The position numbers and the translations under genes are program-made. Below are positions 16,237 to 41,116 of a DNA stretch of 41,116 nt, piece after piece; position 1 is the first letter of the stretch; every line of letters begins with the position of its first letter. The DNA is from Cytauxzoon felis (taxonomy: Eukaryota; Apicomplexa; Aconoidasida; Piroplasmida; Theileriidae), in contig JAIQCW010000233.1 of NCBI GenBank assembly GCA_020283715.1, positions 1 to 41,116 of the forward strand, in the 5' to 3' direction. The notes under the pieces are model-generated. The model had not been told where the DNA came from. It searched no databases and saw only the letters and a program-made list of their open reading frames with translations.

Positions 16237-19200
16237 TCATCTCATGAGATAGCCATCCAGAGGTATAAAGTTCTTCGTCTCGAGTATTAATAGCATCCAT
16301 TCGACATCTAAAATCGGTACGCCTTCATACTTACCGAAACAAATTGTCTTGTTACCAATCATTGGTTTAATTAAATGACAATCGTGGATAGATTTTTTAC
16401 GCTTTTTGGGAGCTTCCTTTTGCGATAGTATTATAGAGTTTATGTATATACTGTCGAAAACAAGGTGTTTAGATAAATCGTCCTCGTTTATATTAAATTT
16501 TTCTAGTCTAGATAAGAGATCATCTTCTATTTCATCTTTAATACACGATAGATTATCCATCAATTTAAATCTGATACCACAATGTTTGCGATATAATTTA
16601 CAATCTAGTGGTGATAAAATATGTCTTTTAGAATCACAAATTATATATATATTCCAACCCCAGAGAAATTTAACATCTTGATATTTAGGATTAAATTCTA
16701 GTATTCTTCCTTGTAATGTTTCTATTTTATTTGTATCATCATTTAATTCAATAGATTTATTATCATCTAATGTGAGGCTATATTGTTCTAGGACTACATC
16801 ATTAAAAAAAAGTACCCCATCAAAATATGCATCAAAAATCCATGAGGTATCGACAATGTCATAAATAATCTTCCTTTTATTAAATGTAGATTTAATATCA
16901 TCGATGATAGATATTGTATTCTTGTATTCATCAGCTAACTTGGTAAAATCATGAATCAATGGTATTCCATAAATCATAATCTTGATGTCGGTAGTAATCT
17001 GAATGATGGAATATATATCGATAGAAGGAAGAGGCTGAAAGAGACTAACCTGTTTAATAATGTCATGTATACTTTTGATAAGTTTGTCACCTGTATTAAC
17101 AAATGAATATGTAATGTCATTTTTACTGCAAAATTTAGATATATCAGCAAATTGATCAAGATCAAATAATTTTATATAATTTTCTACATTTATAACACTA
17201 GGTTCAATGAATCTTTGATTATCCCCCACATCAGCACCATATTCTTTAAGTACATCTTTGGATGACAATGCAATAAGATCGGAATTTATAACGTCTTTAA
17301 TCAATTTTATATAATTTGCATCCATAATTGATTGAGGAATCTTGGTAATGAATAGAAAAATGACGTGGATATTAGATTCGACATCTATTTTATTCTCTCT
17401 ATTCATATTCTCATCCATAAATTTTATGATATTTTGTGTATCAGATTTGTCATAATCGAAGTCAAATTCACAATGATACACTCTTCCATGTGTTCTGGAT
17501 TCTGATGATACGGTACCAAATTCAACATTAATTGAGGATTGTGATAAATTCCCATCACTTGATTTTCTAAAGTAACTTGCACCACCTTCATAAAATGGGG
17601 TACTGATATCATTATAATATTGTGATGATTCAATCATCCCATATGGTTCATATGGTTTAATGACATATAAATCCCTATTGTTAATTGAAGATGATGTCGA
17701 AGGTAGTGATTGTTCGAAGTGTTGTGATGGCCCATCTCCTACAGCGTTATCGAGTAATTTTCCACCCTCACCAAGTAACCTTCCTCCCTCATCGACTAAC
17801 GTCCCTTCCCCTCCTTCATCTGGTGACTGTTTGGTGGATGTGGTGAGATGGTTATAATCGGTGCTTGCGTCACTGTAATCGCTTGTAGAATTCTTTCCAA
17901 ATATTTTATTCCATCCTTCACTTCTAGGAAGCTCAACTTCCTCATGCTCATATTCCCTAGTGTCATAGACGGCAACTTTAATATCAGATTGTGAAGCGTC
18001 TTTAATGTCAAATTGTGAAGCGTCTGATAACGAGAGGGTTAAATTCATACCACTGGAAATGTCATTAATTTGTTTAAATTTCCTGTTGCAGTAATCGATA
18101 TAAGAACATCCGAACATTTTACTGAAGCCTTTATTGAATTTGACATGTTTAACAAGATGAATGATGTAAGACTGTTGTGCTAGAGGGAAATTGATGGACT
18201 TTTCGAAATCTAATTCAAATCCATGATGAAAATCGCCATCACGTACATTATTATCAAGTAATGGAGGAGAAGTACCTTCATCAAGTAACATGGGGCTCTC
18301 AACACCATCGCTTCCAACACCATCATGTCCAATACCCCCAACACGACCATCACCGAGATGGGGTAATTTTTCAAAAAATGGTACTTTACCATATGTATGC
18401 ATTAAATATCCTAGTATCCAGATGATATTAGTTAGATTGAGTGGTGATACTATAGAAAAGACATGATTAGTCATTGTATTATCCATGTCGGGATATAATT
18501 CCACATAACATTTGATGCTTGATAAATTATAGAGTTTGATATTATTGAAATTACATGAATGAATTAATTTCAATGATCCATCTAGGAATGTTTTCGTCTT
18601 GTTATTGATTATATCATCAGTACCATAAATGTGTTTCATGGCATTTTTAATTTTAGATAGATTATAATATAACGAATCTTTAATTATAATAATATTTCCT
18701 AGATTATTATTATTATTAACCGATGAATAATTATAGTTTTCACTTCTTGAATCATCATCATTTGCAACAGGGAATGTTCCAAAGGTAGAGAGGTGAGGGT
18801 GAGGGTGGGAGGGAAGGTGGGAGTGAGGGTGAGGGTGGGAGGGAAGGTGGGAGTGAGGGTGAGGGTGATGAGAAGATGGATGATTAGTGATGGTAGGGTG
18901 ATGTGAAGAATGAGAATGTGAGTGAGTAGGAGGATGGGGATGATGATTGAATAATTTATTTTTTTTAGATATATTAACTTTACCATTATTAATAGTAAAA
19001 TAATTAAAGGGTATAAATTTTTTAAGTACTTTATAAGTATAAATAAAATTAAGTTTTAAATCTTGTAGATAATTAATAAAATTATGATAGATTCTATTAT
19101 TATTAGATATTCTTAAACATTTTTCATATAAATCATCATCAAATGATAAATTATATTTAATTTTGATTAAAGTATCTAATATTATAGATTTAGAATTAAG

Positions 19201-20979
19201 ATATTCAAAAATAAAAAATAAATTTTGTAAAATATGGGGTAATATAAATCCTTTAATATAAAATTTATAATAATTATTATTAGCATTAATAATATTAATA
19301 TTTAATTCATTTAATTTAGAATATATAATAGGAAAATTTGTTAATATACATTTAATAATAAAAATATTATTATTATTAATATTAATAATATTATTAATAT
19401 ATTCATTATTTAATAATTTATATAATTTATTACAATTAAATTTATCATTAATATGTATTATATTTATATCATATTCATCTGATATAGTTAATCTTAATGA
19501 ATTTAATATATATAATTTACATATATTTTCTATATTATAATTATTAATTATATCTTTATCTATTATATTTATATCATATTTTTTTATTTTATAATTATTT
19601 AAATAATAATTTATAATATCTATTGTATTATCAAATGTTGTTATTAAATTATTTATATTTTTACATTTTAATTTAATCTCATCATATATTGTATTATATT
19701 TAATACCATTTTTTATTAATTTATCTCTAAAACTTATTGTTGATCTTGTTATTAATATATCATCATTTGTAAATATACCACTATATTCATTTGTAATACA
19801 TATACCTTGATTAATTGAATTATTATCATTCATTATATTTATTATACAATCACGTAAACTACATATCATTTCATATTCTGTATTTTTATTTATTAAATTT
19901 AATTTTTTATTATTATTTATTATATTATCATAACTCTTGGAATAACCATCAAATAAACATAAATAATATAACATTGATCTACGTATCAAATTCTCAATAT
20001 ACATATCCGAGGGAAGTGTGGAGGTAGTGTTGAAGACACTGACGTTGTTTACAGCGGAAGTGGAAGCAGTAGTGACGGAAGTGGAAGCAGTAGTGACGGA
20101 AGTGGAAGCAGTAGTGACGGAAGTGGAAGCAGTGCTGACGTTGTTTACAACGGAAGTATTGACGTTGATATTAGTTTTGTTCAAATTTTGTGTATTGACA
20201 TCATGTGTGTTGGTGTTGTTTGTATTGACATCACGTGTATTGATGTCGTTTGTATTGATGTTGACATTAGTTTTGTTTTCATTTTGTGTATTGACATCAG
20301 TATTGATGTCGTTTGTATTGATGTTGACATTAGTTTTGTTTTCATTTTGTGTATTGACATCAGTATTGATGTCGTTTGTATTGATGTTGACATTAGTTTT
20401 GTTTTCATTTTGTGTATTGACATCAGTATTGATGTCGTTTGTATTGATGTTGACATTGGTTTTGTTTTCATTTTGTGTATTGACATCAGTATTGATGTTG
20501 ACATTGGTTTTGTGTGTATTAGTAGAATTTCCATCATGTGTATTGACAACGTCACTATTTACAGTACTTGAGTGGACATCAGTTTTACTTCCACCTTCGT
20601 TACTTCCATTATCATTCCTTCCATCCTTGTTACCTCCATCCTTAATCCTCAATCTCTCTCTATTTCCATCATCCCTCAACATCCTTTGACCTCCATCATC
20701 GAATAACATGCTCTGTGTAAATGTGTAATGTATATAGTTGTAAATTTACCAATGAATAACCATAAGGTCTTAAAATTTCATCGTAAATTGAATGTAAAGT
20801 TTCTATAATAATATAATATAATCTCTAATCAATTAAAACTTACCATTATTACCCTTACGCCTACGCCTATTTATCCTTGGATACTTGAAAGCATTCGTCA
20901 ACCATTTCGGTAACTTTGAAGACGATTTGTAACTTAATTCAACCTCACTAATCAAATGACAACAATAAGAAACCGCCAT
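16237..20979 (-). CDS. Giant low-complexity protein with tandem BRCT-like domains
   Basis: BRCT domains bind phosphopeptides in DNA-damage and replication proteins. The gene starts at ATG 20977-20979. Two short 5' exons are joined by introns 20803-20843 and 20713-20749 to one exon of about 4.5 kb, giving about 1,554 residues. The first 60 residues are basic (RINRRRRKGNN). Residues of about 90-290 are Asn/Thr repeats (see the 63-bp repeat). Further on come His/Pro repeats and long Asn/Ile-rich stretches. The C-terminus shows two BRCT ends: IVDTSWIFDAYFDGVLFF, and in the last 30 residues GVPILDVEWMLLILETKNF with the conserved tryptophan. A basic KKRKKS lies between them, possibly a nuclear localisation signal. 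The closest functional analogues would be TopBP1/Rad4-type scaffolds, but I cannot assign an ortholog. Confidence 0.65.
18790..18868 (-). repeat. 30-bp coding minisatellite (His/Pro/Ser) inside the BRCT gene
   Basis: About 2.5 copies of a 30-bp unit encode a PHPHSHLPSH repeat in the BRCT protein. The plus strand, which is the template strand, is strongly G-rich and contains GGGTGAGGGTGGGAGGG at about 18797-18813 and again about 30 bp later. Confidence 0.8.
20215..20520 (-). repeat. 63-bp coding tandem repeat (Asn/Thr-rich) inside the BRCT gene
   Basis: Four to five copies of a 63-bp (21-codon) unit encode repeats of the type NKTNVNINTNDINTDVNTQN. Copies are almost identical at DNA level and the unit length is a multiple of three, so copy-number change keeps the frame. 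A second, shorter repeat (TASTSVT, four copies) lies next to it at about 20037-20130. Confidence 0.85.
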
Positions 20980-21106
20980 TTTATGAAGTCAAATGTGATG
21001 AAGCTTAACGAAGTTCCATCAACAAGAGGGAGGTGATGGACTTTACGAAATTCAATCAACAAGAGGGAGGTGGCTATCAACCTACAACATCCAAACTCTT
21101 CGAGAA

Positions 21107-21420
21107 GATGACTATCAACCTACAACCTACAAACTCTTCTAGAAGATGATATCAACCTACAACCTACAAACTCTTCTAGAAGATGATATCAACCTACAAC
21201 CTACAAACTCTTCTAGAAGATGATATCAACCTACAACCTACAAACTCTTCTAGAAGATGATATCAACCTACAACCTACAAACTCTTCTAGAAGATGATAT
21301 CAACCTACAACCTACAAACTCTTCTAGAAGATGATATCAACCTACAACCTACAAACTCTTCTAGAAGATGATATCAACCTACAACTTACAACCTACAACC
21401 TCCAACCTCCAACAGTCAAT
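21107..21420. repeat. 37-bp tandem array with TTCTAGAA palindrome
   Basis: One 38-bp unit (21107-21144), six essentially identical 37-bp units (21145-21366) and a degenerate partial unit reaching about 21420. Each unit contains CTTCTAGAAG, a perfect 10-bp palindrome, followed by a C/A-rich part (ATCAACCTACAACCTAC). A related degenerate unit precedes the array at about 21072-21106. Upstream, at about 21004-21070, a shorter ATCAACAAGAGGGAGGT segment is duplicated. The array lies between the divergent starts of the BRCT gene (20979) and the large gene at 21670. The rest of the 690-nt spacer holds no gene. Confidence 0.9.
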
Positions 21421-21669: not shown

Positions 21670-24600
21670 ATGTATTTTAATCTCGATCCTTATCATTTAC
21701 TCCATCGCAATAAATTTTTATCTATTGTTTATATAAATAATGGATATAAATTAATTAAATTTAATAGTTTAAGATGTTTTAATAGTACTTCTGTCCATTG
21801 TCATGATGAAACTTCATCTACATTGTTGTCTAATTCAGTCGAACACTCTATTGATAATCGAAATCATATCCAACCAAATACATTTAATGTATATGAAATC
21901 ATTAAATTGTATCAAGTCTTGAAGACAAAACCTTCTGGATATAATGATATATCGTTTTTAAGATCTCTTACAGTTAAAACATTAGGAAATTTACTTTTGT
22001 TCAGGTTTGTATATCATCATCACCATTTAAAATTATTATAGACCTAATGAATTATGTAGTTTTGTTGAGATATTTGCTCATTTAAGCTATAGAAATATAG
22101 TATTTATGCAAGGTGTTACTGAAGCATTATTTTGGTCATGTATGATTAAGAATATTAAAGTAAATGATATAACAAAATTTTTAAAATCATGTTCAATTTT
22201 AAAGTTGGTTTATTATTAAATTATAATTTCAATCAACTATAGGTATATACCAAATTCAAAATATTTAAATGCTTATTTTGAATTGATAAATAATAATTGT
22301 AATAACCTTTCTATTAATGATCATTTAAGAGTATTACATTTTCTGGTATATAAATTCTATTATAATTAGACATAATTCATTAGGTTTATAATAATTTAAA
22401 TGGGATTGATATATTTATGGATATATATTCAAGATGTTATAATCATTGTAAAATGAATTTAGGTAACATGACACATCCATTACTAGCATCATTTAGTCAA
22501 ATACAATTATTAATAGATGATACAGATCAGTATGTTTATAAGATGTATGGATTATATAATTAATTATTATAATAGGATTATATATGATTCTATATGTATA
22601 AATTTTTTACGTGATGTAAAAAATTCAAATGTTGCCAATTTTTTAATGATTTCAAATTCTATATTACGTTGTTCTATAAAGAGGATACCAACTCATTATC
22701 TAAAGGTATATTAATACAATTGTAGGATGATGTATAGTTATATGATGATATATAGGTGTTTAATTATTATATATTTAACCGTACAAATGATTGTAATCCG
22801 AAGATTATAATTAATGGATTATCGTTTGTTTGAAAATTTTTTTTCTGAAATAGAAATCTATATAGTATACTATCTAAATTTTATATGAGAGATACGGTAT
22901 GTCTGAGTAGGATTGGTTCAATAGTTTGTGATGGAATAATGAGTTATAATGATAACGAGGTTAATTGAGGGTGTTTATATTTATATATATATATATATAT
23001 TAAACGTATAGATTATTAAAATATTAAATTTATTATCTAGTTTATCTTATAAGCATAAGGAATTGATTTCTTGTGTATATAAATATACATCTGGTTGGTT
23101 GATGTTGTTGATATGATTGATGAATGATGAATTATAGGTATTGAATCATCTGAGAATTGTAATGTAACAAGGGCATTACTTAATTTAATACGTAAAGTTA
23201 AATACAATCACGCACCTTCAATTAAATATTTACGTGAAGGTGGTGGAAGGAAGGAAATTCTTCGAATGATAGAAGGAGGGGATGAAGTCATTCGAATGAT
23301 ATCCTCGCATCATCCATCATCAAATGACATTAATACTAGAGGGAATGTAATAATTACCAACGAGTTTATATTGAACGATCTTCCGAACGTAGTGAGGGAA
23401 GACCCGAACGTAGTGAGGGAGGTATTTCCGATGAACGAAGTGAGGAGGGAAGTTCCGAGTGAAATGAGGAACGAGGAATTTTCGAGGAACGAGGAATTTT
23501 CGAGGAACGAGGAATTTTCTCCGAATGAAGAATTTTCTACGAAGGAAGTTTCTACAATGACGAATTTTCCTACTAAGTCGAATTTTCTTCCTACTTCAGA
23601 GAATTTTCCTTCATCGAAGAATTTTCCTCCCTCGAAGAAAATTCCATCTTCCTCGCTTCACTCGGAGATACTTCCATCCTCGCTTCGCTCGTCGGACGTT
23701 CCTCCTTCGTCGGAACATCGTCCCTCACCTTGTAAGAGGACTGCACGTAGATTGATTAATAAAAATATCAGCGTAACATCGATAAATGATAATGTAAAGG
23801 TAAAATTTCTGCCATTAAATGCAGAATATAGAAAAAATATTACATTGAGAGAATCATTTAATAATTTTATTAATATACACTTCAATAATAGACATCCAGC
23901 TATTAGACGTATTGAAAATAGAAGGAACATGTTAAATCAAATGGATAGATTTAAAAAGAAATTAAAGTATAAAAATAGTAATTTATTAAATGATATATAT
24001 CTTGAAGGTAAAAATATAAATATAAATACATCTATAAAGAGATATAAGAAAAAAAAGAGATATTCTAGTTGTAAATTTATACAATTTGATACATTTTATT
24101 TAAATGAATGTAAAATATTAAGACGTTGTTTTTTAACACCATTAATAAATTATATTAATAATGGAAGTAAATTATTAAATTATGATGGATGTAAATTATT
24201 AAATTATTTTAAACGTATACATGATGTAAAATGTAATGACGACAACCCAACAGAGGAGGATGTCAATTCAACAGAGGAGGAGGATAACAACAATTCAATG
24301 AAGGAGGAGGATAACAACATTTCAACACAACTTCATCACAACACTTCATCTCCATCAACTCCAACACATCCATTTCCAACACTTCCACCTCCACCACAAC
24401 TTCCACCACCTCCATCAATGATTGATTGTATAGTATATAAGAATACACCATTACATATAGATAATAATTATTTAATACCTATAATAAAGATAAAATCATT
24501 ATATAATAAAAAAACGAAAATTTTTTATAAAAAATTGATAAAATATCATAAAAATATAAATGATATAATAAATTATAATATTAATAATAATTTATGGAAA

Positions 24601-26062
24601 TTTATAGAACATGAAGATAAAAATGTACAAAAATATAATAAACAAGAAAAAAATTTTATTAAACATTTAATTTACCACATAAAATCTATTAGAAATTTAA
24701 TGATTAATAATAAATCATTTAATATTATTAATGATTTTATTAAATTATTTTGGTTTGTTATATTGTTGTTATTATAATTATATTATAGCTCTAATGAATT
24801 TAAAAGAAATATAACTAATCATAATAATGAAATTATAATTGAATTGATCTATAACATCAATCTCATTATTTTTATAAAGTATCTAAATACAAATTGTAAT
24901 ACAGTATGTTATCTACATATATATCATCATCCATATCCAGAAGATATATAATGATGATGATAATAATAATATAATCAATCTAATATATAAACTACTCAAT
25001 ACTATTATATCAACATCCACCATACATAATGTACAATCCTACCCTCTTCCACTCGAGGTCCAATCCAACTCTTCTTCCATTCCACCTGAGGTTACAACGT
25101 CTATTCCACTCGCCGTGGTGGCCTCTTATAATTACCTATCTCTAAAGAGTAAAGCCACTCCCGGAGATCGTGGCGGAAGTGAAGGTGGAGATGGGACTTT
25201 AACCCGGAAGAACAAAGAGTGTCAACCCCTAAGAACAGAGAATTCTACCCGGAGGAACAAGAATGTTAACCCGGAGGAACAGGAAGTTAGTAATTTAACC
25301 TCAAGTGGAAAACCCGAGAACGATCTACGGGAGTTTGAGGGGGAAGTAAATAGAGGAGCTGACCGCAGGACGACCTCAGGTAGAGGTGGACTACCCGTAG
25401 CTGATCTCAGGGAAGCGGAGGGGGAAATAAATAGAGAAGCTGACGGCAGGAATGTAACCTCAGGTGGAAGAGGCACCATGCCTAGTGGAAAGACCTCAGG
25501 TGGAGAAGCTGTCTGCAATACGAAGGAAGATGATAAGAAGGATAATGATTTCATCTCAGGTCTTGAAGATGTTACATTATGTAAATTATTCAATAGTGTG
25601 TTATGTACGATATGGTTGATGATTAAATTTGGTATTCCTTATAATGAGAGTATGAGATATATTTATATTTATGGATCTTTATTTGAGAAGATTATATTTA
25701 ATAGATTGATGTATAATTCGATAGATACTGATCAAGTATATAATTTATTATCTAGTTTGAATAGATATTATATAGTACGGGGAATTTTTAATGATTATAT
25801 AATGAATTTGGGTTATAAATATATAGATGATGATTTATATATGAAGAAGTCATTATTTAAACAAATATTATTAAAGTATAGAATAACAGATGATATGTTA
25901 TATAATATTCAATGGTTTTTAGATGATAAGAATAGATTTGTTAATATCAAATGTTATAATGATGTAAAGTATAATTCTATAATTAAGCATAACATATCCC
26001 TATTAAATGATAATGATACCCAACTAGTATCATATTTTATGAAATTTTATAAATTTTATTAA
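21670..26062 (+). CDS. Large many-exon protein of unknown function, probably organellar, with a repeat-derived insert
   Basis: I join about ten exons. The first starts at ATG 21670, and each later exon connects through introns of 31-55 nt that keep the frame, through the long exon beginning near 23143. Near 24751 an intron (donor gtttgt) follows the FIKLFWF end. Near 24905-24940 a further intron of about 38 nt (gtatgt...ccag) leads into a frame open to 26062. The early part consists of helical hairpin-like repeats (SFVEIFAHLSYRNIVFMQ; VANFLMISNSILRC), like the helical repeats of FAST-kinase/RAP organellar RNA-binding proteins in apicomplexans. The N-terminus (RCFNS region) could be a mitochondrial presequence. 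Two GC-rich low-complexity inserts interrupt it: about 23370-23740, and about 25045-25560 (dispersed repeat). I cannot see a definite RAP domain. Function and exact exon set are uncertain. Confidence 0.5.
25045..25560 (+). repeat. Dispersed repeat copy read in frame within a coding exon
   Basis: Starts with the terminal motif CCACTCGAGGTCCAATCC. It then contains a CTCTAAAGAGTAAAGCCACT module, several CCCGGAGGAACA modules, sub-terminal module A' (NDLREFEGEVNR when translated) and module A (PVADLREAEGEINR). The whole segment has no stop in the frame of the surrounding gene. Local GC content is clearly higher than in the flanking exon sequence. Related copies lie at 27.2-27.6, 28.95-29.63, 34.8-35.25, 35.87-36.3 and 40.1 kb. 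Confidence 0.8.
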
Positions 26063-26996: not shown

Positions 26997-27667
26997 ACAC
27001 ATATACATTATATCATATAATAGAGATAAAAGACGTAAAGGTAAAGACGATACAACCAAAGGGTATGCTAAAAAATCTAATCAATACATATAATAACATA
27101 CAGAACCAAAGTCAAAATGAGAAAAATCTATAATACACACCTATTCACACCACAAGAACTCAGAAGAGAAAATTAAATACAGTTACGCAGTGTAGTGTAA
27201 CGGAACGCAGTAAAGACTACCGAAGGTATACAGACACTACTACACTCGCATCCACCGAGGTCCAATCCACTTCTTTTCCACTCGCCGTGGAGGCCTCTTC
27301 CTTTTACTTCCCCTTCCAACTCCCATAGATCGTTCTCGGCTTTTCCACTTGAGGTCCAATTTAATAGACTCGAGTTTTGAATTCGGGTGGAGATTATTAT
27401 TATATTACAAGTTCTTGATTTGGATAATTGAGAGTAAGGGGACCGAAGAAAATTCTTCGATAACAACCCCTAAGAACAGAATTTGTCGACCTGGAGGAAC
27501 GAGAAGGTATGGATGTAACATCGAGTGGAACCCGTAGCTGATCTCAGGGAAGCGAAGGGGGAAGTAAATAGAAGAGCTGTCTGCAAGACGAAGATAAGGT
27601 GGATGATAAGGCTGTAACCTCAGGTGGAACTTCGAGTAGATGAATTTGTTAGTGTAAAAAATTAACA
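26997..27667. repeat. Intergenic region holding a dispersed repeat element with a second type of core
   Basis: About 670 nt between the convergent TFIIE-beta and G6PD genes. From about 27240 to 27645 it holds an element with the inverted A' module on the left (27283-27345), the A module on the right (27525-27590) and the motif GAGGTCCAATCC near the left end. The core differs from the CPSF73-intron copies but shares GGATAATTGAGAGT and AACCCCTAAGAACAGAAT with the G6PD-intron copy. Short ORFs across it are by-products of the repeat. The first 240 nt hold nothing I recognise. Confidence 0.75.
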
Positions 27668-30600
27668 TTACAATAATTTAAGTATTTCATTGGCTTCTTG
27701 TGGTCCGGTTGATCCACGTGGATACATTATGGGTATGATTTTTTCATTTTCGATTTGATTGATGACGGGGCTTAATATTCTCCATGATTCTTTAACTTCA
27801 TCAATGGTTGGGAAATAATCTTTACGTCCACTGAATGCATGATAGAATAGATTTTCATATGCACCTTCAATAGTTCTTTTAGTAGCTGCATATTCTACAT
27901 CTCTTAAAATACATATTTCATTATTTAATGTAATACCATCACTATCCATATCACTATATATATTAGATTTAACTTCACCAACATTAATTTCACTATCATC
28001 AATAATCCAAAATACAGATGGTGTAGGATGTATTCTAAATACAAGACTAGTAGGTTTAAAATCTAGAAAATCAATATTATTATAACCATCATTCATATTT
28101 AAACGAACTTCACATAAACGTTCATCTAATGCTTTACCAGATGTAATTATAAATGGTACATCTTTCCAATCATCATTATCAATATATAATAAACATGTAC
28201 AATATGTAATACATAATGAATCTAATGGTATACCAATTTCTTGTCTATAACTACAATATTTTCCATCAATACTATTAGTATATTGTCCAATTATACAATC
28301 ATTTATATTTAATGTTCTAATAGATTTTAATAATCTTAATTTATCATCAGATAATAATTTTTTATTACCATGTGTTAATCTCATTGCTATTAATGATAAT
28401 AATTGTAATCCATGACTTTGTATCATATCACGTATAATACCATAATTTTCAAAATATGATCTACCAAATGTACCAATATCTTCTTTTAATTTTATATGTA
28501 CACTTTTAATATATTTATTATTAAATAATGATGAATATTTTGATGATCTTTTGGCTGATATTATACAAGAGATCATAGGTTTACCTAAATAATGATCAAC
28601 AAAAAATAATTCATCTAATTCTATATGCTCTTTTAATACATTTTGTATCTCAATACAACTTAATAAATCACGTCCAAATGGTTTCTCAACCATAGCACGA
28701 AACCAACCTTGTTTAGGTCTACATACCGATGTAGCCATTCTCATTATAGGATGATATGCTTCTGCCGGTGTTGCCAAATATATCATTCTATGTGATGTTA
28801 ATGAACCAGATTCTATCTCTAATAATTTATTATTTAATGCGATTAATGATTCAGGATCGTCATATGTTATTTGTCTGTAGGAAATAAAGATGAAGAATGA
28901 AGGTAGTGAAGAGGGTAGTGATGGATCATCCATCATGGGAATGATGGAAGATGGTGCTAAGATGAGGTCCAATCCAACTCTTCTTCCACTCGGCGTGGAG
29001 CCTCCTTTAATTACCTATCTCTAAAGAGTAGAGCCACTCCCAGAGATCGTGGCGGAGGCAATGTCTGTTATTCCGGGTTGACACCTTTTGTTCCTCCGGG
29101 TATATTTCCTGTTCTTAGGGGTTGACTATCTTCGTTCTTCCGGGTAGACATTTATACTGAATAATCTTTCTCGGTCCCCCAACTCTCAATTATCCATATG
29201 AGGACTTCTGAATTCAAGAATAACTTCTACCCGGAAGAACAGACCTCCACCGAGGTCCAATCAACTCTCTTGGTCCTGCCGTCAGCTCTCCACCCGAGGT
29301 TAGTCCTGCCGTCAGCTCCTCCAATTATCTATCTCTAAAGAGTATAGCCACTCCCGGAAATCGTGGCGGAAGTTAGTTATTGGACCTCAGGTGGAGACCT
29401 CAAGTGGAACCTGTAAGCGATCTACGGGAGCTGGAAGGGGAAGTAAACAGAGAGGGCACCACGCCTAGTGGAAAGACATCATGTGGAATGAAGAGTAGTA
29501 CTGGACCTCGAGTGGAACCCGTAGCTGATCTCAGGGAAGCGGAGGGAGAAGTAAATAGAGAAGGCCACCACGGCGAGTGGAAGAGGTGAAGACAGTGATT
29601 GGACCTCGAGTGGAAAATAATTACATAAAACATACATTCTGCTACATTTATTTTTAAATTCGGCAATAACGGAAGGGAAATCGAATCGTATACCAAAATC
29701 TCTCATAAAAATATTAGTATTGATGGATGAGAATATATCTTTTGTAATATTAGAGAAGAATAGATTAAAATCCATATTTTTTCTACTAACGGCTAGGATA
29801 TGAAATTTATTGGGTAAGAAGCCTAAATAGAATAAATGAAATAATGCTGGATATAATTTTCTTTTAGCTAAATCACCGGATGAACCAAATAATATAAATG
29901 TTAAATAATCATTTTGTTCTAATGGTATTTTTATTCTAACTTTTCTAATAGTAGATGAATCTAATACAGCAATACAACCAGGTTTAGTAAATATTTGTGT
30001 AGCAGGAAATTTTACTGGATCTACATGTCTATATTGTAACATTGTAGTCCAGATACGTTTTTTACGTTCACCTTTTAAAAAAAATAATTTACTTTTTGCT
30101 TTACATAAAAATGGTAATGATATAGTAATACGTTCTCTAACTACAGCAGTTTCTGTATAAGTTGCTATAACTCTATGTATACAATCTGTTACATATGCTG
30201 TATCTAATGTAGCTAAATATTCTGGAAATAAACCTGCTATATGAAAATCATCACCTATACCTAATGTAATTAAATCTGGTCTTGAATTATGATATATTTT
30301 ATCTGTTGTATTATTATTATTAGATGAAGTATTATAATCATTATTATTAACTGGTCCAAATATTTTTTCTAAATCTTCTTCATATTTCTTAACACAATCT
30401 TCTAATGATAAACTTGTATCAGGAAATATTATATTACATTCTGGTACAGGCCAATATTTTAATAATGTATTCTTTATTAATCTAGTATTAGACATCTCAT
30501 CATCAATAGGTACATATCTTTCATCAATAAGAAATATAATTAATCTATTAAAATCAATCTCTAAATCTGTTAAACGTCCCATAAATCTATATATATCTCT

Positions 30601-31075
30601 AGGTGTTGAACCACCTGATAAACCAATTGTAACATATGCTGTATCTGATTTTGATTGACTTGTTTTTATTTTATGTAATATTAAATGTGTAGCTGCTGAT
30701 ACAAAACCTTCTTCTGTACGACAATCAAGTAAACATGGTGCTATTATATCTTCTGGATCACTACAATCATAATCAATAGGTAAATTCATTACTATAATAA
30801 TTATATTTCTTTATATAAAATCTAAACTAACCATGACTAGTATCCTTAAATTGTAATATCTCATGCATCTTACTAGCATAAAATTCCCTTAACCAATCAT
30901 GATAATCAGGTGATTGTAATGCCATCAAACTTGAAAATGAATTAAATGATTCACTATTAGAACTAGTCTTAAAAAATCTACGAGATAATATATCATGAGT
31001 AGATGCCGATGAACTATTCGGCTCAGGACATTGAGATGTTTCATTAGGATTACTACTAGAATTATCCTCTGTCAT
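27668..31075 (-). CDS. Fused 6-phosphogluconolactonase / glucose-6-phosphate 1-dehydrogenase
   Basis: Carries out the first two steps of the oxidative pentose phosphate pathway, making NADPH, in the cytosol. Start ATG 31073-31075. A 40-nt intron (30792-30831) and a 761-nt intron (28875-29635) give three exons and about 868 residues, similar to Plasmodium GluPho. The first 80 residues are Ser/Asn-rich. The lactonase half shows GLSGGSTPRDIYRF, FLIDERYVP, NTRLIKNTL and LGIGDDFHIAGLFPE. In most lactonases the last segment is GMGxDGHxASLFP; here the DGH is DFH. The dehydrogenase half shows the NADP-binding FGSSGDLAKRKLYPALF, EKPFGRD, the active-site DHYLGK, and YENYGIIRDMIQSH-like residues. The DHYLGK lysine and histidine are present. 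The large intron is filled with repeat sequence. Confidence 0.92.
28875..29635 (-). repeat. 761-nt repeat-filled intron of the 6PGL-G6PD gene
   Basis: Donor GTATG at 29635 and acceptor CCTACAG at 28875-28881 (minus strand) join CSR to IQITYDDPES in frame. On the plus strand the intron holds GAGGTCCAATCC at about 28961 and its inverted partner GATTGGACCTCGAGTGG at about 29598-29614. Between them lie two direct copies of the CTCTAAAGAGTAxAGCCACT module (about 28998 and 29325), CCCGGAAGAACA modules in both orientations, and modules A' (about 29400) and A (about 29510). All other introns in this gene, and nearly all in the window, are under 60 nt. Confidence 0.85.
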
Positions 31076-33811: not shown

Positions 33812-36800
33812 ATGGAATCTACACATGTATTTAATGAAGCGAATTATCCTACTACCATTACAGTATTAGGTGCTGGTTGTGAAGTAGGAAGATCTTGTGT
33901 TTTTGTTGAGAGAGGAACAAGTTGTATTATGTTTGATTGTGGTTTACATCCTGCATTATCTGGAGTTGGTGCATTACCTGTATTTGAAGCTGTAGATATA
34001 TCTAAAGTTAATGTATGTTTAGTAACACATTTTCATCTTGATCATTGTGGTGCTATCCCTTATTTATTATCAAAGACCGCTTTTAAAGGTAGAATATTGA
34101 TGACATATGCTACAAAGGCTATATGTCATTTATTATGGTCAGATTATGCACGTATGGAACAATTACAAAGTGTTAAAAAGATATTTGATTATTCAGATAA
34201 AACAGAAGATGATATTATTGATGAATTAGTTTGTGGGTCTGGATTATATACTTTTGAAGATGTTGAATATGCATTGAATAAGATAGAAACTATAGATTTT
34301 CATGAAGAAAGTATGATAGATAATATTAAAATATCATGTTTTAGAGCTGGACATGTATTAGGTGCTTGTATGTTTCTTGTAGAAGTAGATGGTGTTCGAA
34401 TATTATATACTGGTGATTATTCAACTGAAAATGATAGACATTTACCTAGTGCTGAAATACCATTTGTTAATGTACATTTATTAATAAGTGAAAGTACTTA
34501 TGGTATTCGTATACATGAAGAAAGAAAACAAAGAGAATCCAGATTTTTACATGTAGTATTGGATATCATAATGAGAAATGGTAAATGTTTATTACCCGTT
34601 TTTGCTCTTGGTAGAGCACAAGAAATACTCTTAATATTAGATGAATATTGGTCCACTAATAAACAATTACAAAATGTACCAATATTTTATATCTCACCAC
34701 TCGCCGCCAAATCACTACGAGTTTATGAAACTTTCGTCGGACTCTGCGGAGAATATATCAAAGAGGTTTGTTTATAATTTATACTCGAAGGAAATGTTGT
34801 TCTCCACTCGATGTCCAATCCTACTCCTTGTGTTCCACCTGATGTCGTCTTGCAGACAGCTCTTCTATTTACTTCCCCCTCAAACTCCCGTAGATCGTTC
34901 TCGGGTATAAATTCTAATCTCGCTGAGATAAGGATAAAGTGACGTAATCCATGTTTGTACGGATATCTCAATCAATATAAATTGGAATTAAGTGAGGTTT
35001 AGTAAATTCAATACAATCATCAAATTCCTCTTCAATGAAGTATTGATATTTATATTTCATTAAATATTCCATCCACAATCTTCATGAGTTTACCCGGAAA
35101 TTCAGTATTTCCTTCAATTTTTGAAAGTAAAAATGTAGTTAGTGAAACTAGACCTCATGTGGAAACCCGCAGCTGATCTCAGGGAAGCGGAGGGGGAGGT
35201 GATTGGAAGAAGCCCCCACGGCGAGTGGTACAGATGCGAATTGGACCTCAAGTAGAGTGTTCAGTATATATTTATAATAATTTAATAATATAGGGTGTAT
35301 ATAACGGTCATAATCCATTTAATTTTAAATTTGTAAAGTATGCGAGATCTGTAGAATCTGTACGAGCTTATTTACTTAGGGATGGTATATATATTGATTA
35401 ATAATGATTTTATTTATATATAGGTCCATGTATATTAATGACATCGCCAGGGATGTTACAAGGTGGTCCATCTCTTGAAGTATTTGAATTAATTGCACCA
35501 GATAATCGTAATGGTGTTATATTAACAGGATATACAGTTAAAGGTACATTAGCTGATGAATTAAAGAAAGATCCTGAAGTACTTAATTTAGGTAATAGAG
35601 TTATAAAGGTAAATTTTTTTTAAACATAATTATTTATTAATATTAATAGCGTCGTTGTACAGTAGATCAAATATCATTTAGTGCACATGCAGATTATCAT
35701 CAAACAAAAGATTTCATCAAACGCCTATCCGTACCAAATATCATACTTGTACATGGAGAACGATCCGAAATGAAAAGAATGAAAAATAAACTATCCGTAC
35801 GTATATATATTTCCATATTCATCCTTACCTACCCTATATCATTCCACTTCTAAACTCCATCATCACTTTTCCACTAGCCGTTCCACCTGAGGTCGTCTTG
35901 CAGACAGCTCTTCTATTTACTTGTCCCTCCGCTTCCCTGAGATCAGCTACGGGTTTTCCACTTGAGGTCCAGTTTCACTAACTACATTTTCACACCCAAA
36001 ATTTGAAGGAATTTCATCATTTCTGGGGAAACTCATGGAGATAACTCAGTGAATATTAGATGAATTTCTAATGTTAATACTTCATTGAAGAGGATTTTGA
36101 TGATTGTATTGAGTTTACTTAAGCTCGTTTAATTCCAATTTATATTCATTGAGATATCCCTTCAAACATATATTCCATGACTTTATCCTTAACTCGACGA
36201 GATTAGTAATCAACCTCAAGTGGAACCTGGAAGCGATCTACGGGAGCTGGAAGGAGAGATAAATAGAAAAGCTGTCTGCAAGACAAAGAAAGGTGGAATA
36301 TCAAATGTTTGATATATATATTTATATATTTTTTATAGGAGGATATACCTGAATTATCTGTATTTATGCCTGAGGTATTGCAGGCGATTACATTAAATTT
36401 TAATCAGAATCGTATTATTGATACAATTGGTACATTAGCTAAGGATTTGAATTATTTATTTATTGATTCTAAAGAGAAGTCAACGATATCTGTTGGTGAT
36501 ATAACATCTAATGTAGTAATTTATGATGATAATATACCAAAGATGATGTATGTTAATGATATTAAGAATCATTCATCATTGGAGACTTATACATTATCAC
36601 AAAAGATGGTAATATTATTTCCATTTGGATTGGATAAATTAAAGATTATGATTGATGAAGTATATGATGATGTAATTCAAATAAATACAAATCATTTATT
36701 AATTTCAAATATGGTTAATTGTATAGTAATGAATGGTGAATTAAAATTATATTGGACTGTATGTTGATAATTTTATTATATAAATTTATAATATTATAGA

Positions 36801-40027: not shown

Positions 40028-41116
40028 AAATTAATGATATTCGATATACTTCATTCGATATTCTCTTTGTCTTCTACCCACCTTAGGTCATCCTGCTGTT
40101 GCCACTAGCCGTGGTGGCCTTCTCTATTTAGTTGTCCCTCCGCCTACCATAAGTCGGCTACGGGTATTCCACTCGAGGTTACATCCTCCAATAATACTAA
40201 AATAATTTAATTATAATCGCATAATTAACTTCTTTCAATCATTTACAACCCAAATTTAATATTTTAATAATTTTATGATGTATATTTAAGTAAGTATTAT
40301 TATAGGTATAATATAGTTACTAACTTCAGTTCATGTTAGTAGTTAAATAGTATATATATTATAATAATTATTTATATTAATACATATATATCATCATATA
40401 ACAATACATCATCCTTCAATTGTATTAATATATGAGTATATATTATATTTACTTCTCAATCTTCAATAGACATTAATATTATAGTGGAAATGGTGTTTTT
40501 TATCCCTATAACCAAAGGTTGATGGTGTTTTTTAACTTCACTATGTATGTACAATTACTAGGAAAGTATGGTGGTAAAAGTTGTTTACCTGATAATGGTG
40601 GTGATCATACATAGTAATTTACCATGTGCCATGAACAATGTAACCAACAAATGGTAATCGGTGGAAAACAGAAGAAGCCTCCATGGCTAATGGTGAAGAC
40701 TAAGAAAGAATATCAGGTGGAAATGAATGTGGAGGTTGTAATCCGAGTGATAATAAGGGAGCAAAAAGGTACTACTGATTGAGGAATATGACTGTCATAT
40801 GAATGATGTGGATACTGGAGCTATTGGATATTCATATAGAAACTATGGCTATGGAAGTGACTACAAGTGATGAAAAGTCCATAATAATCCTCAGATTCCC
40901 ATATGTGTTGGTAAATTTCATCATTCTAGAGATGATGTTACTGTAACACTGGCCCATGATGAAATGAATATTTATAGACTTATATCATTAAATCCTCCAC
41001 TATATACAGGTATTCTCAATTATTTACATCAGGTGGATTGTCTACAAGTGGTTAATTTAACTCAAGAATAGAATTGCTTTCATCAAATTGGGGTACTATA
41101 GTATGGAGGAATCACT
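40028..41116. other. Gene-poor right end with degenerate repeat remnants
   Basis: No convincing gene in the last 1.1 kb. It contains a dispersed-repeat fragment at 40083-40195 (separate entry) and AT-rich sequence with the phrase GGTATAATATAGTTACTA. From about 40480 there is a GC-richer tract resembling a decayed copy of the repeat family (AGCCTCCATGGCTAATGGTG against AGCCCCCACGGCGAGTGGTA; ATCAGGTGG). A 10-bp perfect inverted repeat, ACTATGTATG (40540-40549) and CATACATAGT (40606-40615), encloses 56 nt. Frames in 40800-41116 are interrupted. A gene may begin beyond the edge. Confidence 0.5.
40083..40195 (-). repeat. Dispersed repeat fragment (module A, reverse)
   Basis: In reverse orientation it carries the CCACTAGCCGTGGTGGCC segment, the A module (related to GTAGCtGATCTcaGGGAagc, here diverged) and the end motif TTCCACTCGAGGTTACATCC. 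It has no second module and no core, so it is a solo end or truncated copy. It starts about 55 nt after the stop of the seven-helix gene. Confidence 0.7.

Follow-up and report, generated by a model that had tools for sequence, protein, structure and literature searches.

The window analyzed here is the whole of contig C135 (41,116 bp) in an 8.62-Mb piroplasm assembly of 181 contigs, and its central feature is a GC-rich repeat element that lies within the last coding exon of a large gene on the forward strand. This host gene spans 23131–26062 and reads as 958 residues without an internal stop after two short introns are removed. Its upstream exon (23131–24767), part of an open reading frame (ORF) at 23131–24777, joins in frame across a predicted 21-nucleotide (nt) GT..AG intron (24768–24788) to an in-frame middle exon (24789–24903). 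A second predicted intron of 37 nt (24904–24940, GTATGT..CCAG) then joins the frame to the last exon (24941–26062, including the stop), which bears the insert; the corresponding stop-to-stop frame, 24887–26062, is 391 residues long. An earlier note on this DNA had placed a short intron at about 24905–24940, which differs by a single base from the intron given here; reaching the main upstream exon requires the 21-nt intron as well.

The insert was delimited at 25045–25560 in that note, while a k-mer mask gives 25044–25518. The claim that it is a GC-rich repeat running stop-free through a coding exon of a large gene holds, as the segment contains no stops and is in frame with the rest of the gene model. 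Its GC content is 48.8%, compared to 23.1% in the left flank (24941–25044) and 19.9% in the right flank (25561–26062). On the forward strand, a motif search finds the 5′ inverted-repeat motif TCCACTCGAGGT at 25048–25059 and again at 25081–25092, followed by a 5′ hairpin cassette, CCACTCGCCGTGG, at 25106–25118, which matches the cassette set described below. Core M1 (GCCACTCCCGGAGATCGTGGC, peptide ..ATPGDRG) occupies 25154–25174, and core M2 is present twice, at 25322–25345 (..NDLREFEGEVNR) and 25403–25426 (..VADLREAEGEINR). The 3′ inverted-repeat motif ACCTCAAGTGGA is found at 25298–25309, 25373–25384 (with one mismatch), 25457–25468 and 25493–25504, and a 3′ hairpin cassette, CTGACGGCAGG, at 25440–25450.

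The insert belongs to a family of very high copy number. One 21-bp core, of the M1 class, occurs 2,071 times exactly across the genome (1,016 forward and 1,055 reverse), while the reversed pattern used as a control has none, so the repeat is not a product of chance. The inverted-repeat motif was matched 604 times in 304.5 kb. One copy, at locus L025, has a perfect end pair of 16 nt (TCCAACTGAAGTCCAA .. TTGGACTTCAGTTGGA), and among 12 isolated copies several others have near-perfect end pairs and a few are unpaired. The stretch between the ends holds core M1 (..SSNYLSLKSIATPGDRG), core M2 (..PVADLREAEGEVNR) and hairpin cassettes of six types, oriented one way near the 5′ end and the other way near the 3′ end; composite segments reach ∼590 bp. 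Cassettes were recognized at both ends in 94 of 105 M1–M2 elements, and the two ends carried a matched pair in 19 of the 94, compared to a mean of 21.6 after shuffling. The 5′ and 3′ cassettes are thus independent, and a simple perfect palindrome was dropped as a description of the element. Coding copies show every one of the six cassette types at their 3′ end; at the 5′ end they show five.

Copies within genes are strongly biased to one reading frame. We applied the k-mer mask to a 244.5-kb sample made up of the window, six loci found by DNA similarity and 20 loci chosen for long ORFs (L009–L028); loci L001 and L008 were excluded because they overlap other stretches. The mask recovered 182 segments, of which 79 lie inside an ORF that extends 40 or more codons to both sides, a proportion raised by the enriched sample. 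Same-frame peptide motifs are carried by 78 of the 79. Among the 66 in-ORF segments of at least 200 bp, the used frame is open in every case, the other two sense frames in none, and the three antisense frames in 0, 1 and 5. M1 and M2 are spaced by a multiple of three in 74 of the 75 coding pairs, compared to 18 of 38 others; this contrast is partly circular, since ORF length was what defined a copy as coding. Across the genome, among the matches listed and sorted by eye, the sense peptide falls in ORFs of 400 or more residues in 43 of 150 cases and the antisense peptide in 2 of 146 (Fisher p = 2.7e-12). Among 30 non-coding copies, frame 0 is open in 15, frame 1 in 8 and frame 2 in 6, which is no more than a hint that the family may be open by design.

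A further comparison was limited to the 82 copies that had not been used to pick a locus. A copy was taken as entered when the host frame ran at least 120 codons ahead of it, and six copies with 60–119 codons were excluded. By this measure 43 of the 82 are entered; 42 of the 43 keep the frame from M1 through to M2, and in 41 it stays open for at least 60 codons more. Where fewer than 60 codons precede M1, 12 of 33 copies have an open frame in phase (p = 2e-9 versus entered copies). Many of them lie in the same ORF as a seed copy and are not independent, and loci L009–L028 were picked for long ORFs, so the ratios are enriched. Splicing would not generate such a pattern, and translation is the best reading of it. 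The same bias speaks to ribosome bypass, in which the segment would be kept in the mRNA with its peptide absent from the protein, as with the byp elements that ribosomes bypass in some mitochondria. The window insert is rich in hairpins and, as single-stranded DNA, folds better than 100 of 100 shuffles (z = −3.2), which would suit a bypassed segment. Bypass does not need an open, in-phase segment, yet the segments are nearly always open and in phase, and we regard it as extremely improbable.

The proteins that carry the element are otherwise unrelated. The element peptide, which the earlier note had singled out for a search of other proteins, is a genome-wide feature rather than that of one gene, with in-frame copies in RNA polymerase III RPC1, glutamate-cysteine ligase, EngA, a DHHC palmitoyltransferase and other conserved genes. 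After masking of the repeats, blastp among the hosts (E 1e-4) returned four rows, reciprocal ones included, of 30–37 residues, every one of them within an additional module that the hosts share, and a multigene family with a repeated domain was rejected as the source of the likeness. This additional module (like DKKHYN..PHDLDNKPHD) joins element segments in frame in unrelated ORFs of loci L023, L027 and L015. Ten host ORFs were compared with Pfam: six have matches above the cut-offs (MFS, DHHC, TPR, ABC1 kinase plus beta-lactamase, DEAD plus helicase C, and EngA), one has a Vps54_N match below them and three have no match. The ORF with ABC1 kinase and beta-lactamase-like domains (L010:1849–5586) is a single frame with two element segments, while a 2,545-residue ORF holds at least nine. 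Further hosts, which from reading their sequences alone we take to be a kinesin, an SWR1-like protein and a ferredoxin-reductase-like protein, join this list, and an SMC-like match at L020 is weak.

In several hosts the point of insertion is clear, and in three (RPC1, glutamate-cysteine ligase and EngA) the insert bridges parts that lie near each other in the homolog. The RPC1 insert (L015) places query residues 337–477 against residues 626–631 of a homolog of solved structure, and the glutamate-cysteine ligase insert (L022) places query residues 229–384 against residues 222–251 of its homolog, also of solved structure; we take these chains to be human and yeast, respectively. In EngA (L013), the inserts separate the first GTPase domain from the KH-like domain at the C-terminus. 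An ABC-F protein has its insert after residues 86–119, which match the start of nucleotide-binding domains, and before a match at residues 396–465. The DHHC protein (L005) carries its insert in a tail that differs among relatives. Its best named match, at 50% identity across 46% of the query, comes from Theileria equi, followed among 13 matches by Babesia species and T. annulata, which agrees with the earlier note's placing of the host organism among the apicomplexans and narrows it to a piroplasm. The organism's own copy of the protein was absent from these 13 matches, and a search of the assembly for cytochrome b found none; Cytauxzoon was considered as a candidate genus. An AlphaFold model of this protein, built from six sequences, is weak (mean predicted local distance difference test score, pLDDT, of 44), with residues 271–618, including the insert, below 50.

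These hosts also bear on whether the open frame at the target is a coincidence, with a GC-rich repeat stop-free by chance and the gene ending ahead of it. Two features of the target would allow this, namely the short AT-rich exon stretch (∼35 codons) before the insert and the failure to find a homolog. The 180 codons that follow the insert, however, are open in DNA with a GC content of 19.9%, and a single ORF contains conserved sequence on each side of the insert in RPC1, in glutamate-cysteine ligase and in EngA. We therefore consider coincidence or artefact very unlikely.

Another explanation is that the in-frame copies are introns, similar to introner elements, that are spliced out and are open only by coincidence. 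Copies do occur in introns, as the earlier note had observed for the same modules elsewhere. On the reverse strand of the window, two segments (28898–29150 and 29225–29615) lie in a predicted 761-nt intron of G6PD (28875–29635); they contain stops, and removal of GTATGT..CCTACAG, with splice sites outside the mask, restores a G6PD-like frame. Four more (34801–34897, 35164–35253, 35839–35973 and 36212–36286) fall, by eye, in exon gaps of CPSF3 (34801–36286). The repeat ends also contain AG|GT-like steps (CTCAG|GT), and 25549–25559 looks like an acceptor. The three intronic arrays of the window, however, are spliced in AT-rich DNA outside the element, with the measured donors lying 21 and ∼37 nt ahead of the first repeat motif (array limits partly by eye), and the bias to one frame and phase is not expected from splicing. 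At the target itself, we screened for GT..AG introns of at least 300 nt whose length is a multiple of three and which leave the last-exon frame open, and ranked them by a crude site score. Of 89 such candidates, 12 take out the whole element, and the best of the six listed among these scores 1.9, compared to 4.6 and 5.7 for the two predicted introns; the highest score in the full set of 89, 3.9, belongs to a candidate whose donor falls within the element. The earlier note had found the donors that it checked to be out of phase with a possible acceptor near 25,555; the 12 introns that remove the whole element have poor sites. On this basis splicing of the target insert was set aside as unlikely, and an intronic nature of the in-frame copies in general is likewise unlikely.

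From these results, the target insert is probably a copy of a high-copy, mobile, palindrome-rich element whose exonic copies are retained in the mRNA and translated. Several observations weigh against this. The target frame has no homolog at E 0.01 among 7,996 candidates scored. Exceptions to the frame bias exist: one entered copy in L020 is out of phase, one of the 79 in-ORF segments is antisense (L027:1667–1759), and antisense-frame copies at G000:C94:168573 and C142:15062 lie in ORFs of 645 and 1,345 residues. In the 101-kb sample described below, one M2 copy is antisense in an ORF that overlaps a G6PD exon and intron. There is no visible amino-acid-level selection on the peptide, with coding and other copies within.025 of each other for both M1 and M2. 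Finally, no target-site duplication of at least 4 nt was found in the 12 isolated copies, a small sample, and the DDE_Tnp_4 and DDE_3 transposase models have no match in the genome; a hAT dimerization model also found none, but its control gave none in any genome either. RVT_1 matches one ORF only (C56, 1,010 residues), possibly telomerase.

A sample of 101 kb, chosen without regard to in-frame copies except for the target, is made up of the window, 30 kb at the starts of contigs C4, C8 and C9 and 30 kb inside C94. Here, 3 of 20 M1 copies (one of them the target) and 5 of 28 M2 copies (two of them the target) are in the used frame of ORFs of 200 or more residues; apart from the antisense M2 copy, the others fall in no such ORF. 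Genome-wide, 30 of the 150 M1-peptide matches listed, from 2,059 candidates, are in ORFs of 400 or more residues as judged by eye. Applied to the 2,071 core copies, this extrapolates to ∼414 protein sites (range 288–565), assuming that peptide matches are typical of DNA copies. Other copies have no long open frame. In the window, besides the G6PD and CPSF3 segments, these include 21078–21399, closed in all frames, two segments between convergent genes (27251–27360 and 27464–27630, within 27251–27630), and a short segment at 40102–40186.

By codon position, coding copies and the rest have nearly the same mismatch rates. For M1, mismatch rates at the three codon positions are.102/.062/.139 in coding copies (n = 76) and.118/.078/.140 in others (n = 51); for M2 they are.148/.115/.153 (n = 92) and.152/.130/.178 (n = 83, with one of 84 excluded). 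As judged by these rates, what is kept in coding copies would be openness and phase, not the peptide sequence. Alternatively, the inserts may have been domesticated and kept because they are useful to the parasite or to the proteins that carry them, perhaps in the role of disordered linkers. The number of hosts, the several copies per protein and the disorder-prone composition of the peptide, which is hydrophilic (grand average of hydropathy, GRAVY, −0.86 compared to −0.27 for the hosts), are in keeping with this idea, but coding copies are no more constrained at the amino-acid level than non-coding ones, the hosts are unrelated and module exchange varies the peptide. Domestication therefore seems unlikely; the inserts are probably disordered and would be tolerated without serving a function.

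The high copy number and the unrelated insertion sites lead us to infer that the family is mobile. In the proposed sequence of events, a GC-rich, palindrome-rich element with ends like TCCACYYGAGGTCCAA..TTGGACCTCRRGTGGA and exchangeable hairpin cassettes near both ends would have spread through the piroplasm genome. Landings in exons would be kept where they fall in the single open orientation and frame, and would be transcribed and left unspliced. These exonic copies may then be translated as hydrophilic, probably disordered inserts of ∼25–200 residues in loops, linkers and tails, while the remaining copies would persist in introns and intergenic DNA. The independence of the 5′ and 3′ cassettes invites the guess that spread involves exchange of cassettes between hairpins.

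Other features of the window and the sampled loci deserve mention. Another module, distinct from the element and with a peptide resembling ENFPSSKNFPPSKK..SLRSSDVPPSSE, occurs in the target gene at 23440–23760 and at L018:6538–6685, in the same frame in the target gene and a 740-residue ORF of L018, with 77% identity over 155 nt; it is perhaps a second translated repeat family. The CPSF3 gaps (34801–35253 and 35839–36286) have an AT-rich core between inverted M2 arms, a longer foldback form with stops; an AT-rich stretch of this kind also lies, as judged by eye, ahead of M2 at L022, L019 and L026. The G6PD gene, at 27668–30810 on the reverse strand, appears to have 6-phosphogluconolactonase ahead of it in one gene, as judged by a motif. 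The two enzymes are joined in one gene in Plasmodium, and the arrangement is unexpected in a piroplasm. In addition, an in-frame tandem repeat, NENKTNVNINTNDINTDVNTQ, lies at 20181–20571 within a 1,502-residue ORF (16237–20745).

In-frame palindromic elements are known mainly from Rickettsia, Wolbachia and organelles. The closest parallel is the Rickettsia palindromic element (RPE), for which one account describes inverted-repeat ends, stem-loops, a length of 105–146 bp, intergenic copies and in-frame fusions in conserved genes, with the insert reported in the translated product of gmk (PMC2229807). Protein-coding palindromic repeats of Wolbachia appear there as the title of a reference (PMC2229807). 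The earlier note's comparison with Rickettsia is borne out on structure: the piroplasm element has inverted-repeat ends, a palindromic fold, copies outside genes and in-frame insertions in conserved protein genes. It differs in its eukaryotic nuclear setting, its 2,071 exact core copies, its greater segment length, its exchangeable hairpin cassettes and its intronic copies, and the likeness is best regarded as a functional parallel, not as membership of the Rickettsia family.

Yeast mitochondrial GC clusters, which in the var1 ORF are not removed from the RNA, and the double-hairpin elements of Allomyces are described in another report (PMC2800124). These are likewise GC-rich or hairpin elements, but they are organellar, whereas several hundred nuclear coding sites are estimated here. 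Both are also shorter and occur in few genes. Within the alveolates, introner elements of Amoebophrya are described as repeats with inverted repeats that spread in genes and have their ends at exon/intron boundaries (PMC7789003). The piroplasm element likewise lies within the genes of an alveolate and bears inverted repeats, but the intronic copies read in the window are spliced at sites beyond the element and its exonic copies keep the frame. Miniature inverted-repeat transposable elements (MITEs) and foldback elements are also short, without a gene of their own, with inverted-repeat ends and high copy number; for the present family, the 12 copies showed no target-site duplication and the transposase models tried gave no match. 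In a survey of 64 apicomplexan genomes, Class II elements are reported to be absent, and the candidate MITEs were discarded (PMC9141347). Among titles and abstract openings in the open-access literature, we found none describing palindromic elements that are translated from the nuclear genome of an apicomplexan.

We tentatively suggest, with the balance somewhat against so broad a claim, that this is a readable mobile family of a eukaryotic nucleus, in which cores and cassettes share one open frame, exon insertions survive at ∼400 protein sites, and spread occurs without a transposase by exchange of hairpin cassettes. For gene prediction, such inserts serve as a warning, since they could pass as introns or gene breaks. 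If the interpretation is true, it would challenge the lack of Class II-like elements in apicomplexans as reported in that survey (PMC9141347), and the genome would offer hundreds of natural loop-insertion experiments. It would also provide a nuclear case, with more than 2,000 copies, of a eukaryote in which essential enzymes take up mobile DNA directly as part of their protein sequence.
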